DNA of 64,000 nucleotides, from positions 186,001 to 250,000 of the forward strand of contig JAHNUO010000034.1 of the NCBI GenBank assembly GCA_019787685.1, read 5' to 3'. The translations under genes and the position numbers were made by a program. Numbering within the stretch: the stretch's first letter is position 1; each line of letters starts with the position of its first letter. The DNA comes from Chiua virens. Its lineage: Eukaryota > Basidiomycota > Agaricomycetes > Boletales > Boletaceae. A model generated the notes under the pieces. That model did no database searches, had not been told where the DNA came from, and saw only the letters and a program-made list of their open reading frames with translations. Positions 30,128-58,524 of the stretch are shown piece after piece.

Positions 30128-33100
30128 TCATATTTCAGGACTGAGCTCAGAGATTGCTTTCTTGACAGCATTGATTGTGCCAGATGATTTGTAAAGTTTG
30201 TCAGCCATTTTGACTGGATCCTTAACACCTTGTTGGTGTAGAAAGAAGGAATGTTCTAAAACAATAGCAAAACCTATAGATACCAATCATTGAGTGTAAT
30301 CACTGAAGTTATTAAAAGCTGACCAATGCCTGAATGAAGTACTTTGGCCAATGGAATGCTTTGCATTGAAAACTGGATATATCATACAATGTAAGGTATG
30401 AATAACAATGCAATCAATGTACTTACAATAGATGAGGATGATGTTGAGTGTGGTGTTATAGCTGAGAAATCTACAAGCTGATATAATTTGAACAAAATGA
30501 CAGGACAATTGAAAGAAAACATACTCTTGGAGATGCCAATATCTATAAATTTGACATCATCATTTTTATGGTGAAATATACAAATATCACAAACCTCCTA
30601 TTAAAGAAAAAGATCAATAAGATCAAAATAAAAAAATTGATTCATACCTCCTAAATGATTAAAATGGACAGAAAAGAAAATGTTAAAAATTTTCAGGTCC
30701 TTAAGGATGAATATGAAAGCTCACATCCTAAAAAGTGCAGAAATATCAGTATCCATAGGAATTAAAGTTGATCACATACAAGCTATAAATGAGAGGACAA
30801 GGGCAAGACAGAGGGGCATGGATCAGCATCCTTCTCAAAGCCCCTTCACAGTCAGAGCACTTACAAACTATGAATGGCAGGACAAGAGCAAGACAGAGGG
30901 GCATGGATCAGCATCCTCCTCAAAGCCACTTCACAATCAGAGCACTCACTCCCTATGAATGACAGGACAAGGGCAAGACAAAGGGGCACAGATCAGCATC
31001 CTTCTCAAACCCCCTTCACAATTAGAGCACTTACTCCCTATGAATGACAGGGCAAGGGCAAGACAGAGGGGCATGGATCAACATTCTTCTCAAACTCCTT
31101 TCACAATCAGAGCACTTACTTCCTATGAATGAGAGGACAAGGACAAGACAGAGGGGCATGGATCAGCATCCTGCTCAAACCCCCTTCACAATCAGAGTAC
31201 TTACATACTATGAATGACAGGACAAGGGCAAGACAGAGGAGAATGGATCAACATCCTTCTCAAACCCCCTTCACAATCAGAGCACTTACAAACTATAAAT
31301 AACAAGAGCAAGACAGAGGGGCATGGATCAGCATCCTTCTCAAAGCCCCTTCACAATCAGAGCACTTACATTCTATGAATGAGAGGACAAGGGCAACACA
31401 GAGGGGCATGGATCAGCACCCTTCTCAAACCCCCTTCACAATCAGAGCACTTACATTCTATGAATGAGGGGACAAGGGCAACACAGAGAGGCATGGATCA
31501 GCATCCTTCTCAAACCCCCTTCACAATCAGCACTTACAAACTATGAATGACAGGACAAGGGAAAGACAGAGGGGCATGGATCAGCACCCTTCTCAAATCC
31601 CCTTCACAATCAGAGCACTTACATCCTATGAATGACAGGACAAGAACAACACAGAGGGGCATGGATCAGCATTCTTCTCAAAGCCACTTCACAATTAGAG
31701 CACTTACAAACTATGAATGACAGGACAAGGACAAGACAGAGGGGTATAGATCAGCATCCTTCTCAAAGCCCCTTCACAATCAGCACTTACAAACTATGAA
31801 TGACAGGACAAGGGCAAGACAGAGGGGCATGGATCAGCATCCTTCTCAAACTCCCTTCACAATCAGCACTTACAACCTATGAATAAGAGGACAAGAACAA
31901 CACAGAGGGGCATGGATCAGCACCCTTCTCAAATCCCCTTCACAATCAGAGCACTTACAAACTATGAATGACAGGACAAGGACAAGACAGAGGGGTATAG
32001 ATCAGCATCCTTCTCAAAGCCCCTTCACAATCAGCACTTACAAACTATGAATGACAGGACAAGGGCAAGACAGAGGGGCATGGATCAGCATCCTTCTCAA
32101 ACTCCCTTCACAATCAGCACTTACAACCTATGAATAAGAGGACAAGAACAACACAGAGGGGCATGGATCAGCACCCTTCTCAAATCCCCTTCACAATCAG
32201 AGCACTTACAACCTATGAATGAGAGGACAAGGGCAACACAGAGGGGCATGGATCAGCATCCTTCTCAAAACCTCTTCACAATTAGAGCACTTACTTCCTA
32301 TAAATGAGAGGACAAGGGCAAGACAGAGGGGCATGAATCAGCATATTTCTCAAAGCCCCTTGACAATCAAAGCACTTACTTCCTATGAATGGCAGGACAA
32401 GGGCAACACAGAGGGGCATAGATCAGCATCCTTCTCAAACCCACTTCACAATCAGAGCACTTACACTCTATGAATGAGAGGACAAGGGCAACACAGAGGG
32501 AATAGATCAGCATCCTTCTCAAAACCCCATTCACAATCAAATGGCTTACTCTCTGTAAATCAGAAGCCATGATTTAGATCTTGTTACCATGACTATGGAT
32601 TTATACCATATACAAGCTTGCTTACCTCAATATGTGGAAACCATGATGCAATTGCTACCCTCATGGACTGCTGTTGAGCACTAGTAAGTGGCTTATTCAC
32701 CCTGTGTTTATGGTCTATGAGAGGTATCAGAATCCTATAAGATATTTAATAGGTATACTCAAAGATTTTACACTTCAACCAATTACCTTTCCATGGCAGA
32801 CTCAATGCAGAGCATAATATTTGTGTGTTGTGTAGTCACAAGGAGCATTTGTAACACTCCTTCATCTAAGGCCTTCACAGTCCTTTCAATGAGAAGTTTA
32901 CACCCCTCATCAGACTTGTCCAAGTCTTTATGCATGATATCAGTTTAAATATCATGTAAAAAGAAACTTATGAATACATACCCTTTAACTCCACCTTTGC
33001 TGTTGGTTTATACCTCATACTCTCCACCCTTCCCCATACAGGATTATTCTTTAGCATATTCTCAGCAATTTCCTGTCCCCTCATAAGTCTTTCCTTTCGA

Positions 33101-33950
33101 GGTAGCTTTTTCTCCTCCAGTGTTAAAGCTGCAAGGCCTTGTAGCAGAAGTGCATCACATTTTGTGAGTACAAGTACAACAGGAACTGCAAACAAACAAA
33201 AATGAGACAGTTGTTATATTTGAGGAATGCTTACCATTTCCTGTGTTACACTCATCAAAAAACTTTTCCTCGGCAGCCAAGACCGCCCGGTGGTATTGAT
33301 CCATAGGAATACAGTACCTATCAAATACCATGTCATTGTTGGTACATACATGCTGCTATCCCTGATTACCATATGGCATGGATACGCTTCTTCAAGAATG
33401 CTGTATTTGCGCAGTCAGAGACAAATTGCTTCATCTTCTCGAATTCTTCTATACTGCCAGCTTCGAAGCCCTGCGAGTCGTGAAAAATGAAACCCGGGTT
33501 GCTTCGAAAGACCAATTCATTCTCGATGTTATGAATTCCGCGCTGGAGATGTGTTAGTCGAATGTTGCGGATGACGAGGTCACAGTCACGGAAGTGTGCT
33601 TGTGGAACTCACACCCGTGGTTCCCTCGATCTCTGCTAGATCAACCTGATTGCAGACCATCAGTACCCCGCCTCGACGTCTCGTGAGGATTAACATACCT
33701 TGTTCCCACTTCCATCGTAGACCTCTGGATCTTCTGTAGAGTTACAGATCTGCTTGAGTATCGTGGTCTTCCCAGCGTTCGCACGGCCAATGATAAGGAT
33801 TCTGAAACGTCCGAATTTCTCTCTGATGTTGTCGATTTGCATGGTGGTAGATTCTGCGGGAACGTCACTGGGGGGTTCTCCAAGCACTTCTTCAGGGACG
33901 TCCGCGGGAGCTTTGGAGCGAAAAAACGGGAGGCGAGTGAACTTTTTCAT
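30128..33950 (-). CDS. Large GTPase-like (G-domain) protein with a single-codon exon array
   Basis: Exons from the start: 33950-33699, 33645-33613, 33542-33370, 33317-33235, 33185-32982, 32925-32787, 32734-32626; then the 24-triplet array; then 30597-30525, 30477-30427 and a last exon 30273-30128. Motifs: Walker A GRANAGKTT, Walker B-like FIFHDSQGFE, and TKCD as the NKxD equivalent. Long helical segments follow (VLQMLLVTTQHTNIMLCIE). A hydrophobic C-terminal tail holds FAIVLEHSFFLHQQGVKDPV and ends SELSPEI. The frame stays open through all upstream exons. It resembles a basidiomycete G-domain family of unknown role. The border between the last two exons is uncertain; a 6-nt exon (30329-30324) could fit there. 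Confidence 0.72.
30598..32625 (-). repeat. Intron/single-codon-exon array: 24 triplets in 25 introns
   Basis: Between exon ends 32626 and 30597 the sense strand reads [GT...AG][NNN] repeatedly. Triplets (sense, lowest coordinate): AGA 32550, AGT 32465, GAA 32380, GAA 32295, GTT 32210, GTT 32125, TTT 32042, TTT 31959, GTT 31874, TTT 31791, TTT 31708, GAT 31623, TTT 31538, AAT 31455, AAT 31370, TTT 31290, TAT 31205, GAA 31120, GGA 31035, GGA 30950, TTT 30865, CTT 30780, GAT 30725, GAG 30648. Intron lengths are 73, then mostly 82 or 80 (one 77), then 52, 74 and 50 nt. Both flanking exons are phase 0. Whether the triplets are spliced in is not proven by sequence. Confidence 0.8.
30783..32549. repeat. 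85-bp minisatellite, about 21 units
   Basis: Tandem units with period 85 (some 83 or 80). On the plus strand each reads CTATGAATGACAGGACAAGG ... CACAATCAGAGCACTTAC plus a variable triplet. A three-unit block of 251 bp occurs twice in a row (31711-31961 and 31962-32212), a higher-order duplication. The period is not a multiple of three and the units have stops, so they are not a coding repeat. Confidence 0.95.
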
Positions 33951-49072: not shown

Positions 49073-50404
49073 TTAGCGGCGTCCCTTTGTGTCCTTGCGA
49101 GGGCGGGAATTAGGGGGACCGTTACCCCGAGGGTGGACGATTTGCCGCCGGAGGTGTAGGTGTTGTAACAACTTTCCTGCGTGCGCGTTCCCCCCAGGGA
49201 AGAACTTTCCTGTTGAAAGCGTATATGCACCGAGCTGACGCTCGGTCTCGAACAAGCCAACTTTCATGGGGCTGTTGTTCGCATCGACGAGGTCAACGAG
49301 GTTCACAAATTTCGCGCGCACTGCCTGGTAATGACCCAAGGTTTCCAGTCGTTGAGCACGAGTCATCAGGAAGAGAAATTTGGAATAACGACAACTTACC
49401 TTACGACAGGCTCTCATCTTTCCTGGAACAGGCTCTATATGCATGACGCGACATAATTTTTTCCAGCTTTTGAGATTTTTGGTCTTCGTCCCATAGATCG
49501 TGTTGAATTGTAACACGAGAGCGTCGTCGAACCTCTGGCGGACACTTTGCCTTTCCGGATGTCTTCTGTGCCAACCAAACTGGTCGCAGAGACGGTAAAA
49601 CTCCAATGACGAGGACGCGGTGGGATTGTATTGAAACAGAGGAGCGTAGCTAGCGAAAAAAGCCTGAATCGGCAATTTCGAGCCTTCTTTATTATTCTAG
49701 GATGTGTGTCCGTTGTTCAGAATGAAACTCGCATAAATAGTAATGGCTGACCTTTTTTCCTTTCATGGCGTCCGGTCCTCCAGAATTTTCCAGTTGGGCG
49801 CCAACGTCGTCGCATGGATGGTGAAATCCGGGCTCCGCGGGTTCAACAGGATCCCCTCCGTCCTCCGCATATTCTGAAGGGTCGATCTCGTCCTCCTCCG
49901 CATATTCTATAGGATCGCACCCGTCCTCAGCATCTTCTGTGGGGTCGTACTCATCCTCCGCATATTCTCCAGGATTGGGTTCAAACTCGCAGTAGTACTT
50001 GGAGTATTCGTCAAGTGGCGACTCATTGAACGATCCTAAGAGGTCACCGTTGTGCTCACCTGTTCACTAGTGGAGGTCATTTTAATGAATAACGAGGGGG
50101 TGGGAGTCGGGGTTGTGGGGGTTCAGAAGGAGGCGGCAAGAAGACTTCTGGGTGTGCCAGTGAGTGGGATCACCTTCCTCGAGGTGCTATATCTATGGTC
50201 ACGGCGTTGCTTACCCCACGCCTCGTGTATAGAAAATGACCACATCCAATGGAAGTGGTGCTGTGTGGAAATGAAAAAATGCCCGAAAGCACATGTTGCG
50301 CCCACTTGACCTGGTGACTGGTTCATCATGATGGTGATCCTTGAAGATATGACTCACTCACCTTCTTGAAGTTCGCCCAGTGACTCGAACAGTTTAGCCA
50401 TCAT
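49073..50404 (-). CDS. GKFFP-motif basidiomycete protein, copy 1
   Basis: Exon 1 begins ATGATG at 50404 (MMAKLFESLGELQE), then a 302-nt intron. Exon 2 begins at 50059 (EHNGDLLGSFNESPLDEYSK) with acidic repeats of the type EYAEDEYDP. Later exons: KGKK|NNKEGSKLPIQAFF, ASSSLEFYRLCDQFGW, FNTIYGTK, SWKKLCRVMHIEPVP, AVRAKFVNLVDLVDANN and STGKFFPGGNAHAGKLL. The block NLVDLVD ... GKFFP ... AGxLL is a hallmark I associate with a large family of unknown function in agaricomycetes. The frame is intact across the splices I could place. Confidence 0.7.
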
Positions 50405-53717: not shown

Positions 53718-55011
53718 TTAGCGGCGTCCCTTTGTGTCCTTGCGAGGGCGGGAATTAGGGGGACCGTTACCCCGAGGGTGGACGATTTGCCGTCGGAGGT
53801 GTAGGTGTTGTAACAACTTTCCCGCGTGGGCGTTCTCCCCAGGGAAGAACTTTCCTGTTGAGAGCGTGTATGCACCGAGCTGACGCTCGGTCTCGAACAA
53901 GCCAACTTTCATGGGGCTGTTGTTCGCATCGACGAGGTCAACGAGGTTCACAAATTTCGCGCGCACTGCCTGGTAATGACCCAAGGTTTCCAATCGTTGA
54001 GCACGAATCATCAGAAAAAGAAATTGGGAATAACGACAACTTACCTTACGACAGGCTTTCATATTTCCTGGAACAGGCTCTATATGCATGACGCGACATA
54101 ATTTTTTCCAGCTTTTGAGCTTGTAGGCCTTCATCCCATAGATCGTGTTGAATTGTAACACGAGAGCGTCTTCGAACCTCTGGCGGACACTTTGCCTTTC
54201 CGGATGTTTCCTGTGCCAACCGAACTGGTCGCAAAGACGGTAAAACTCCAATGACGAGGACGCGGTGGGATCATATTGAAACAGAGGAGCATAGCTAGCG
54301 AAAAAAACCTGAATCGGCAATTTCGAGGCTTTTTTATTTTTCTAGGATGTGTCCGTTGTTCAGAATGAAACTCGTATAAATAGTAATGGCTGACCTTTCT
54401 TCCCTTCGTGGCGTCCGGTCCTCCAGAATTTTCCAGTTGGGCACCAACGTCGTCGCATGGATGGTGAAATCCGGGCTCCGCGGGTTCAACAGGATCCCCA
54501 CCGTCCTCCGCATATTCTATAGGATCGCACCCGTCCTCAGCATCTTCTGTGGGGTCGTACTCATCCTCCGCATATTCTACGGGATCGGGTTCAAACTCGC
54601 AGTAGTACTTGGAGTATTCGTCAAGTGGCGACTCATTGAACGATCCTAAGGGGTCACCGCTGTGCTCACCTGTTCACTAGTGGAGGTCATTTTAATGAAT
54701 AGCGAGGGGGTGGGAGTCGGGGTTGTGGGGGTTCAGAAGGAGGCGGCAAGAAGACTTCTGGGTGTGCCAGTGAGTGGGATTACCTTCCTCGAGGTGCTAT
54801 ATCTATGGTCACGGCGTTGCTTACCCCACGCCTCGTGTATAGAAAATGACCACATCCAATGGAAGTGGTGCTGTGTGGAAATGAAAGAATGCCCGAAAGC
54901 ATATGTTGCGCCCATTTGACCTGGTGACTGGCTCATTATGATGGTGATCCTTGAAAATATGACTCACTCACCTTCTTGAAGTTCGCCCAGTGACTCGAAC
55001 AGTTTAGCCAT
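53718..55011 (-). CDS. GKFFP-motif basidiomycete protein, copy 2
   Basis: Second copy of the family gene, with the same exon order as copy 1. The first of the two initiator ATGs has become ACG, leaving MAKLFESLGELQE from 55011. The acidic repeat exon is shorter by one EEDEIDPSEYAEDG block. The 200-residue C-terminal frame (49073 equivalent) is well preserved, with a few substitutions (QAFF to QVFF, RACRK to KACRK). The frame appears open. Confidence 0.68.
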
Positions 55012-57207: not shown

Positions 57208-58524
57208 TTAGCGGCGTCCCTTTGTGCCCTTGCGAGGGTGGGAATGAGAGGGACCGTCATTCCGAGGGTGGACGATTTGCCGCCGGAGGTGTAGAAGTCG
57301 CAACAACTTTCCTGCGTGCGCATTCTCCCCAGGGAAGAACTTTCCTGTTGAGAGCGTGTATTCACTGAGCTGACGCTCGGTCTCGAACAAGCCAACTTTC
57401 ATGGGGCTGTTGTTCGCATCGACGAGGTCAACGAGGTTCACAAATTTCCCCTGCATCGCCTGGTCATGACCCAAGGTTTCCAGTCGTTGAGCGCGAGTCG
57501 TCAGGAAGAGAAATTGGGAATAACGACAATTTACTTACCTCACGACAGGCTTGTATGTTTCCTGGAAAGGGCTTTATGCGCGTGACGCGACACAATTTTT
57601 TCCAACTTTTGTAACTTTGGATCTTCGTTCCATAGATCTTGTTGAACTGTAGCACGAGAGCGTCGTCGAACTTCTGGCGGACACTTTGCCTTTCTGGATG
57701 TCTTCTGTGCCAACCAAACTGGTCACAGAGACGGTAAAACTCCAATGACGAGGACGCGGTGGGATTATATTGAAACAGAGGAGCATAGCTAGCGAAAAAA
57801 GCCTGAATCGGCAATTTCGGGCCTTTTTTATTTTTCTAGGATGTGTCCGTTGTTCAGAATGAAACTCGTATAAATAGTAATAGGACTGACCTTTTTCCGT
57901 TTCGTGCCAGTGGCGTCCGATCCTCTAGAATTTTCCAGTTGGGCGGGGGCGCCAACGTCGTCGCATGGATGGTGAAATCCGGGCTCCGTGGGTTCAACAG
58001 GATCCCCTCCGTCCTCCGCATATTCTGAAGGGTCGATCTCGTCCTCCTCCGCAGATTCTATAGGATCGCACCCGTCTTCAGCATGTTCTGTGGGGTCGTA
58101 CTCATCCTCCGCATATTCTACAGGATTGGGTTCAAATTCGCAGTAGTACTTGGAGTATTCGTCAAGTGGCGACTCATTGAACGATCCTAAGAGGTCACCG
58201 TTGTGCTCACCTGTTCACTAGTGGAGGTCATTTTAATGAATAGCGAGGGTGGGAGTTAGGGTTGTGGGGGTTCAGAAGGAGGCGGCAAGAAGACTTCTGG
58301 GTGTGCCAGTGAGTGAAATCACCTTCCTCGAGGTGCTATATCTATGGTCACGGTGTTGCTTATCGCACGCCTCGTGTATGGAAAATGACCACATCCAATG
58401 GAAGTGGAAATGAAAAAATGCCCGAAAGCACATGTTGCGCCCACTGACTGGCTCGTGGTGATCAAGATATGACTCATTCACCTTCTTGAAGTTCACCCAG
58501 AGACTCGAACAGTTTAGCCATCAT
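57208..58524 (-). CDS. GKFFP-motif basidiomycete protein, copy 3
   Basis: Third and most diverged copy; start ATGATG at 58524. Segments: LPIQAFFASYAPLFQYNPT, FDDALVLQFNKIYG, SWKKLCRVTRIKPFPGN, QGKFVNLVDLVDANN and STGKFFPGENAHAGKLLR. The family motif block is present. Splice borders in the middle (57470-57560) differ from the other copies (GTAAGT is shifted by a small insertion), so its correct splicing is less certain. Confidence 0.6.

Follow-up and report, generated by a model that had tools for sequence, protein, structure and literature searches.

A run of predicted single-codon exons separated by tandem introns in a GTPase gene family of Chiua virens

Analysis of a 64,000-nt stretch of the Chiua virens genome (contig JAHNUO010000034.1, positions 186,001 to 250,000; hereafter the window, with positions counted from its first base) revealed on the minus strand a GTPase-family gene in which about seven ordinary exons, running up to ...WFPHIE at 32626 in phase 0, are followed by a long array of short intron-like units separated by single triplets. 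The gene is JVU11DRAFT_11854 (P0001, Chiua virens), which matched with 100% identity over 80% of the query in a protein search, and its joined exons matched the Pfam family MMR_HSR1 (E 1.6e-5). The queries of both searches, and of the search for family exons in other loci described below, included a downstream exon, EVCDICIF..., that was later rejected.

From 32625 onward, the minus strand holds 25 intron-like units that run from GT to AG, measure 50-82 nt and end exactly three bases ahead of the next GT. Read in order, the first thirteen triplets are AGA AGT GAA GAA GTT GTT TTT TTT GTT TTT TTT GAT TTT and the remaining twelve are AAT AAT TTT TAT GAA GGA GGA TTT CTT GAT GAG GAG. A generic junction pattern finds these 25 junctions in 2.1 kb with zero extra, and Tandem Repeats Finder (TRF) places an 85-bp minisatellite at 30773-32539, to which 21 of the units belong; the first unit and the last three units of the chain lie outside the repeat. 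By the junction pattern, the chain opens with a non-repeat intron of 73 nt (32553..32625) and predicted single-codon exon 1, AGA (Arg, 32550..32552), the first junction of related arrays being mostly AGA, GGA, AAA or CAA. The repeat array (30783..32549) comprises 21 units of 77-82 nt with 20 predicted single-codon exons, from AGT at 32467 to TTT at 30867. It is followed by a predicted exon CTT (30780..30782), which is CTT or TTT across the eight copies read, and by the predicted exons GAT (Asp, 30725..30727) and GAG (30648..30650; GAG, CAT or CAG in paralogs), both flanked by non-repeat introns. The 25th predicted exon, GAG at 30595..30597, also comes from the junction pattern and has a long-exon alternative that is open in six of eight copies. 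Where array tails were read (window-type copies, L038 and L041), the GAT codon at 30725..30727 is the same in 8/8 window-type copies, in L041 and in the distant paralog L038, whose introns around GAT look unrelated to those of the window.

These observations bear out most of the original prediction for this locus, which had placed 24 stop-free triplets within 32625-30598: all 24 are present with zero stops, AGA, CTT, GAT and GAG end at the bases it had given, and the three-base spacing that it described for every unit and beyond the repeat holds in 25/25 units, including the non-repeat introns. Its uniform 16-nt donor, in contrast, is not found in every unit, as donors vary (GTAAGC, GTGAGT, GTATGT, GTGAGC, GTATGA and altered CTCTGATTG); what all 25 units keep is GT, AG and the spacing of three. 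The exon that it began at 30597 is better read as the 25th triplet, GAG (30597-30595); the long frame contains a stop in L013 and L022. With the stricter pattern [CT]AG-N(k)-GT[AG]AG[TC], the sense strand of the array gives 22 matches at k=3, none at any other k (0-15) and none antisense, and the rest of the window, over both strands, is free of matches at k=3, with 0-5 at other spacings. Since the window units are copies of one another, the count across loci given below is the better test against chance. A coding repeat was also considered for the array and rejected, because unit lengths of 85-86 are no multiple of three.

The exons around the array were assigned as follows, all on the minus strand. 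The first GTPase exon (33699..33950), with its ATG at 33950 and the P-loop GRANAGKT, is based on sequence reading, NCBI model P0001 and Pfam, and the short second exon (33613..33645, VDLAEIEGTTG) on reading against P0001. More GTPase exons separated by ordinary short introns occupy 32786..33542 by sequence reading and the family-exon search (up2 to 33372; up3 33316-33236; up4 33183-32983; up5 32926-32786), and the last long exon before the array, RILIPLID...ASWFPHIE, spans 32626..32736 and ends in phase 0. Beyond the 25th triplet, sequence reading suggests a 52-nt intron (30594-30543), whose donor GTTTGT is weak (GTTCGT in L021), then an 18-nt exon ILASPR (30525..30542), apparently in phase 0 on both sides, and likely exons LVDFSAITPHSTSSSSI (30427..30477) and FSMQSIPLAKVLHSGI (30324..30372). 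The C-terminal exon GFAIVLEHSFFLHQQ... (30128..30273) was found by tblastn with the C-termini of P0009 and P0121, and tblastn also places this exon downstream of the array in other loci. The long downstream exon EVCDICIF... is open in 6/8 copies and was set aside for its stop in L013 and L022 and for a length that misfits P0009; the 52-nt intron leading to the 18-nt exon is likely the better fit.

Searches of the 48.3-Mb genome indicated that the window gene is one member of a large family. The 16-nt donor occurs 972 times, and exact acceptor-donor pairs, with any spacing of 0-12 allowed, total 836 for the unit type of the window and 247 for another type of different sequence; among the 100 matches listed per unit type, all are spaced by 3. 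In 22 of 24 further loci fetched around matches of the first type (L012-L035), the same GTPase-family exons lie on the array strand; L018 and L033, which make up the remainder, hold the family's C-terminal exon (tblastn). A protein search of the genome returned 82 family places, 8 of them weak, and on contigs C1-C9 an array lies downstream in 25 of the 28 stronger places, the contigs beyond being sampled at C10, C11, C13 and the window. The three array-poor places are L042, a partial match with zero junctions in the 3 kb fetched; L039, half of a split copy whose array half is L020; and L040 (C3:607700-611200), where an array of about one unit (GGA) is followed by the C-terminal exons, forming a natural near-empty site. 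The last exon before the array ends in phase 0, as originally predicted for the window, in 23/23 genes examined, and the same exon precedes the array in all 23 (for L021 the phase was read one codon past the BLAST end). Distant paralogs, L036-L038, have a different unit sequence in the same layout. A search with array-start patterns gave three matches and one with array-end patterns none.

The split copy, located on C4 and near-identical to the window gene, is divided within the fourth long exon: its 5' part lies at C4:136 kb (plus strand; L039, C4:136100-138100) and the array with the 3' part lies at C4:84 kb (minus strand; L020, C4:80000-89900), an arrangement that suggests an inversion of about 50 kb. 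The window and L020 are 98.1% identical over the longest BLAST piece, and L020 lacks a three-unit block, GTT TTT TTT.

Unit donors were located in 28 loci with no use of the bases upstream of them, and 744 of the 757 stand in the arrangement AG-N3-GT, a layout of consecutive 3-nt spacers like that of the 25 predicted 3-nt exons in the window; four of the 13 exceptions are GC donors. Computed array by array (26 arrays), donor GT heterozygosity lies between 0 and 0.10, compared to an intron-body mean of 0.10 and a maximum of 0.37 in L012. The corresponding AG values were not used because units in this set had been filtered for AG at both ends, so the constancy of AG rests on the direct count, 749 of 757 unit donors. 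Intron length takes up to 14 values within one array, and the spacers are still 3. With the strict junction pattern, the sense strands of 27 loci gave 723 matches at k=3 versus 1-17 at any other k, and the antisense strands gave two at k=3; L041, fetched after these counts, added 35 strict junctions, all of them at k=3 in a scan of k from 0 to 12.

This constancy is difficult to reconcile with the view that the array is an inert minisatellite inside one large intron and its splice-like motifs a by-product of the founding unit. Tandem copies do share motifs without selection, and diverged arrays taken alone show zero excess of codon changes in minimum-change counts. Nevertheless, in L012, whose intron bodies reach a heterozygosity of 0.37, 19/19 donors keep AG-3-GT; the arrangement recurs in two unit types of quite different sequence; the chain extends through non-repeat introns with the conserved GAT; variation in L025 falls exactly between the splice sites; and, as described below, stops are avoided. 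We therefore regard an inert array as extremely improbable.

The triplet is the hypervariable part of the unit, with mean heterozygosities of 0.63, 0.59 and 0.47 at codon positions 1, 2 and 3 (26 arrays). In L025, 26 letter-identical 83-nt introns have seven different codons between them, in L015 17 identical introns have 11, and a single 83-nt body, letter for letter the same, is found 58 times across three genes, next to nine different codons. A minimum-change test, which covered 20/28 arrays, placed codon changes above their share in L014-L017, L024, L025, L027, L028 and L037 (p 5e-5 to 6e-11), with a weaker excess in L026, L029 and L030 (p 0.005-0.035). Neutral point mutation as the only source of codon variety can thus be rejected, given at least seven codon changes versus no body change in L025 (p 6e-11) and ten versus nine in L015 (p 2e-10); this rejection rests on the homogenised arrays, as diverged arrays lack the excess. 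Duplication of the codon by intron insertion was likewise rejected, adjacent identical codons numbering 122 against 118.2 expected.

Stop codons are strongly avoided among the 710 triplets compared. The ratio of TAA to TAT is 1:119, versus 144:52 for the other NAA and NAT triplets (p 8e-44); TGA makes up 5 of 26 TGN, versus 163 of 172 for NGA among the corresponding NGN triplets (p 7e-17), and TGG makes up 17 of 26, versus 2 of 172 for NGG (p 3e-16). L041 has 38 triplets and no stop, and an exact-flank search for TAA or TGA (TAG excluded) gave four matches, all TGA. The pattern is as expected if the triplets are read in phase 0, and the two lowest probabilities for TAA and TGA are not what a non-coding minisatellite, whose unit would carry zero coding constraint, should give. 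Among codon pairs one step apart, 14 are synonymous, 156 nonsynonymous and 15 involve a stop, with 21-28% synonymous expected. We did not use this low synonymous share as proof of selection on amino acids, since the third base adjoins the donor and may be held by splicing; from the first two positions alone, about 2% synonymous pairs would be expected.

The same avoidance bears on the second proposal of the original prediction, that the units act as stepping stones: stepwise removal of the short introns would make a 2-kb intron removable, with all triplets discarded and zero residues added. Fungal introns are short, the C. virens gene models lack array residues, and candidate zero-length junctions (AG/GT, for example GGCAG/GTAAGA) occur at the 5' end of the arrays in L036-L038, L025-L029 and L032, all of which would suit such a role; in L031, the first junction reads AAAG/GCAAGA. 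However, there would be little reason for discarded triplets to avoid stops or to hold a length of 3, or to be the hypervariable part of the unit, and the proteins of relatives whose sequences look spliced have linkers at this position. Stepwise removal is thus retained in our model, and loss of every triplet is very unlikely. Because stops are avoided, inclusion of the triplets looks like the rule, and they are most likely retained and translated as single-codon exons.

Optional use of each triplet, kept or skipped as the original prediction proposed and giving many linker isoforms per gene, is a variant compatible with translated triplets. The 744 spacers of 3 nt are frame-neutral, a few arrays hold a stop triplet that skipping would bypass, and schistosome micro-exon genes are reported to behave likewise (PMC4350168). 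Set against the strong avoidance of stops, which implies that most triplets are usually read, widespread optional use appears doubtful although possible, and the comparison of arrays points to variation that would lie first between genes and not between isoforms.

Proteins from other boletes provide a view of the region between the GTPase domain and the C-terminal segment. Several jgi/lgn proteins have one open frame across the Chiua intron positions on contigs of 1.1-1.9 kb; given these uninterrupted frames, they most likely represent spliced RNA. Directly after WFPH, they carry linkers that differ from the remainder of the protein, such as EKELLWLLGGLEEELLLERKRDRERNQ...NNLDE in P0121, VLDDLDYLYDLDLDVYLDDVRYEV in P0102, ARYYYDDVRDLDVLDLLRDLDVLLLL in P0131 and ERFEVFREFVFEFANLD in P0009. 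Predicted translations of the arrays resemble them: the window array reads RSEEVVFFVFFDFNNFYEGGF, the L037 array YLLFDDEYLLDDHDFYDLDLYEFE, and the L021 array, codon by codon, RLLERQQQLEELEEELLEF..., which would encode RLLERQQQLEELEEELLEFEEYELHLELLLELQQLK ahead of its one stop triplet. The 12 commonest residues account for 667/710 array codons and for 179/216 residues in nine jgi/lgn linkers, versus 172/312 in 13 NCBI models (p 2e-11); taken singly, six of the nine linkers pass p < 0.05, the exceptions being P0009, P0025 and P0082. These values should be read with the choice of data in mind, as the 12-residue set came from Chiua codon counts but was fixed once the linkers had been seen, the nine linkers were chosen by eye for a long tail, and ten jgi proteins (P0014, P0016, P0017, P0021, P0028, P0034, P0048, P0072, P0092 and P0157) and three NCBI models (P0029, P0103 and P0113) were left out, the latter by hand. 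The linkers of P0009 and P0121 end in NLD, and the late single codons CTT/TTT-GAT of Chiua resemble its LD. Eight models from other boletes (P0019, P0020, P0023, P0026, P0032, P0040, P0041 and P0061) end no more than about 25 residues past WFPH. Two proteins show features of their own: P0034 has a tail of repeated VEGFEGS-like sequence, and the Imleria model P0004 has half of its GTPase domain duplicated.

Several observations weigh against translation of the chain. Six of the 710 codons are stops, distributed over five of 28 loci (L015, L021, L022, L030 and two in L035). In L014, adjacent units at donors 4168 and 4253 (sense coordinates) have 5-nt and 2-nt spacers, with donor and acceptor that look intact, and L038, L034 and L035 contain broken junctions; the stop triplets, irregular spacers and broken junctions may mean that some genes are dead or that some triplets are skipped. 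Avoidance of TAA and TGA could have a splicing reason, since after AG they would create competing donors (GTAAGT, GTGAGT), yet TAT, which makes the good donor GTATGT in the same place, is the commonest triplet. Codon changes show no excess in the diverged arrays L012, L013, L021, L022, L031, L032 and L036 (p 0.4-1.0) or, at p 0.075, in the window array; absence of an excess is expected in diverged arrays if the bodies had time to change, and a neutral array would look alike. The C-terminal exon of the window copy loses its frame at 30134-30128 and closes early relative to L020 and other paralogs, and the window gene may therefore encode a shorter-tailed protein or be a decaying copy. Among the proteins, the 13 NCBI models of C. 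virens that were read lack the array, 11 of them stopping ahead of it and two (P0007 and P0013) entering its first intron. Of the nine jgi/lgn proteins used, P0064 and P0102 stop short of the C-terminal segment and the other seven extend to it; the ten left out end before or soon after WFPH or look truncated or unspliced there. A composition scan blind to position had its best window in the linker for three of 11 proteins and none of 14 controls, and a protein homologue search with the predicted linker plus tail gave zero matches.

Weighing these points, we think it very probable that the 25 units are spliced successively and that each triplet becomes a one-codon exon of the mRNA, giving a linker of about 25 residues between the GTPase domain and the conserved C-terminal segment. 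The single-codon exons first proposed for the window from its intron minisatellite now have behind them a family of genes that share the layout, the avoidance of stops, non-repeat triplets that are conserved, and relatives with similar linkers whose sequences look spliced. With only 3 nt, an exon probably lacks the length needed for simultaneous recognition of both flanking introns. If splicing proceeds 5' to 3', the first reaction would link WFPHIE to the first codon, after which the GTAAGC of the next intron would have a normal exon in front of it and the cycle could repeat; with this order, the problem of short-exon recognition vanishes. The process would amount to a ratchet akin to recursive splicing in which each step delivers one codon, a view into which the zero-payload AG/GT starts of some arrays fit.

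The arrays also suggest how such a linker could evolve. Tandem gain or loss of whole units would change its length in frame, and frequent recombination would homogenise the introns while selection keeps the codons different, so that the linker would likely be a fast-evolving variable region like that of a recognition protein. Codons are weakly linked to intron variants: in 18 arrays, linkage is 0.014 to the upstream and 0.029 to the downstream intron, compared to 0.051 within bodies, where it was taken over up to 25 columns, the most homogenised arrays having too few variable columns for inclusion. Linkage across the codon is 0.003, and between codon positions 1 and 2 it is 0.26. This weak linkage suggests that introns are homogenised largely independently of the codons. 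Short, frequent conversion combined with selection for codon variety would separate the two, and replacement of introns at the RNA level, with ends at the splice sites, would be a simpler, speculative explanation.

Another origin compatible with translated triplets is insertion of a mobile intron at each codon border of an older exon, in the manner of an introner. The 83-nt body found 58 times in three genes with nine codons, together with the weak linkage of codons to flanking intron variants, is what such insertion would produce. In contrast, the window and L020 differ by a three-unit block that includes its codons, indicating tandem duplication or loss; blocks of codons recur inside arrays (for example TGG TAT GGA GGA in L016); and insertion at all codon borders and nowhere else is not introner-like. 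We consider this origin unlikely.

In recursive splicing, an intron is removed stepwise by means of a 5' splice site that lies right after a 3' splice site. Classical ratchet points leave zero bases behind, whereas the Chiua steps would each leave one codon; 3-nt spacers, and no zero-length exons, run throughout the window, AG/GT appearing only at the first junction of other arrays. Schistosome micro-exon genes (MEGs) have symmetrical exons and reportedly vary their proteins through alternative splicing (PMC4350168), and an aphid megacycle gene is reported to contain more than 100 microexons (PMC9168663). Like the run predicted for the Chiua family, the MEGs and the aphid bicycle/megacycle genes string together many tiny exons in families that evolve fast, but the Chiua run is distinguished by predicted single codons only, very similar tandem introns and minisatellite expansion. 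Isolated microexons of 3 nt or 1 nt, as in mouse Ncam, Drosophila TnT and plant APC11 and VPS55 (PMC8042270, PMC8831610), show that a spliceosome is able to recognise exons as short as 1-3 nt; these are single, neither arrayed nor hypervariable, whereas the predicted Chiua exons form a run. A "3-bp exon" of Ganoderma gpd was dismissed as a further case because it belongs to a longer exon.

Introner-like elements and sister stwintrons are families of very similar introns in one fungal genome (PMC4457414, PMC9024468). As in introners, identical Chiua bodies occur with little tie to the flanking exon bases. However, introners and stwintrons are scattered over genes, whereas in the loci sampled the Chiua introns are in tandem at one position of one family: within a 25-locus sample (the window and L012-L035, picked by array matches), 23 loci have GTPase exons up to the same last exon, and the remaining two, L018 and L033, hold fragments of this family. 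Nor do the units resemble stwintrons, in which an inner intron splits a splice element of the outer one, as they stand in series, each with a complete GT and AG. Fungal NLR genes carry near-identical repeats that evolve in concert and are reportedly reshuffled to renew the recognition repertoire (PMC10197012), and homogenised Chiua arrays likewise consist of repeats that are uniform except for a few variable codons; in NLRs the conserved repeat is itself coding, whereas in Chiua it is the intron that is conserved, and each repeat would contribute a single coding triplet. The original prediction knew of no described equivalent, and in the open-licence PMC literature we found none for single-codon exons, intron or microexon arrays, introners, minisatellite introns or bolete GTPases. 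The known systems that were found share one aspect each with the Chiua arrays, and none combines tandem similar introns with one variable codon each.

Elsewhere in the window, TRF detected similar 63-bp/30-bp tandem repeats of the CGTCCTCCGCATATTCTGTAGGGTCGAACT type at 49842-49975 and 57993-58126, about 8 kb apart, and a tandem repeat related to this type is present at 54491-54586.

A structure model of P0009 has a mean predicted local distance difference test (pLDDT) score of 78.8, its first Foldseek match is a bacterial dynamin-like protein with a template-modelling (TM) score of 0.31, and a PDB sequence search gave one weak ARL3 match. Together with the sequence, the model suggests a G domain and a helical C-terminal part joined by a partly helical linker, of which, as modelled, only the G domain is clearly recognised. 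By analogy, a large family that diversifies fast and has a hypervariable linker may resemble recognition proteins. Evenly balanced, in our judgement, is the broader proposal that the family represents a new architecture and a new means of protein diversification: a one-codon-per-step ratchet, with a tandem repeat made of an intron and one codon, in which the linker could grow, shrink and be rewritten residue by residue, introns would copy or convert themselves with the splice sites as ends while codons stay different, and up to about 70 genes would make up an immune-receptor-like repertoire, extending across Boletales with other units. If the run is translated, gene models of the family would be cut short, and the arrays would present an extreme test of exon definition by the spliceosome as well as a natural setting where the copies of an intron and the codons they deliver evolve separately within one repeat. 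Translation of the run would also offer a possible route by which fungi renew a variable protein region codon by codon.

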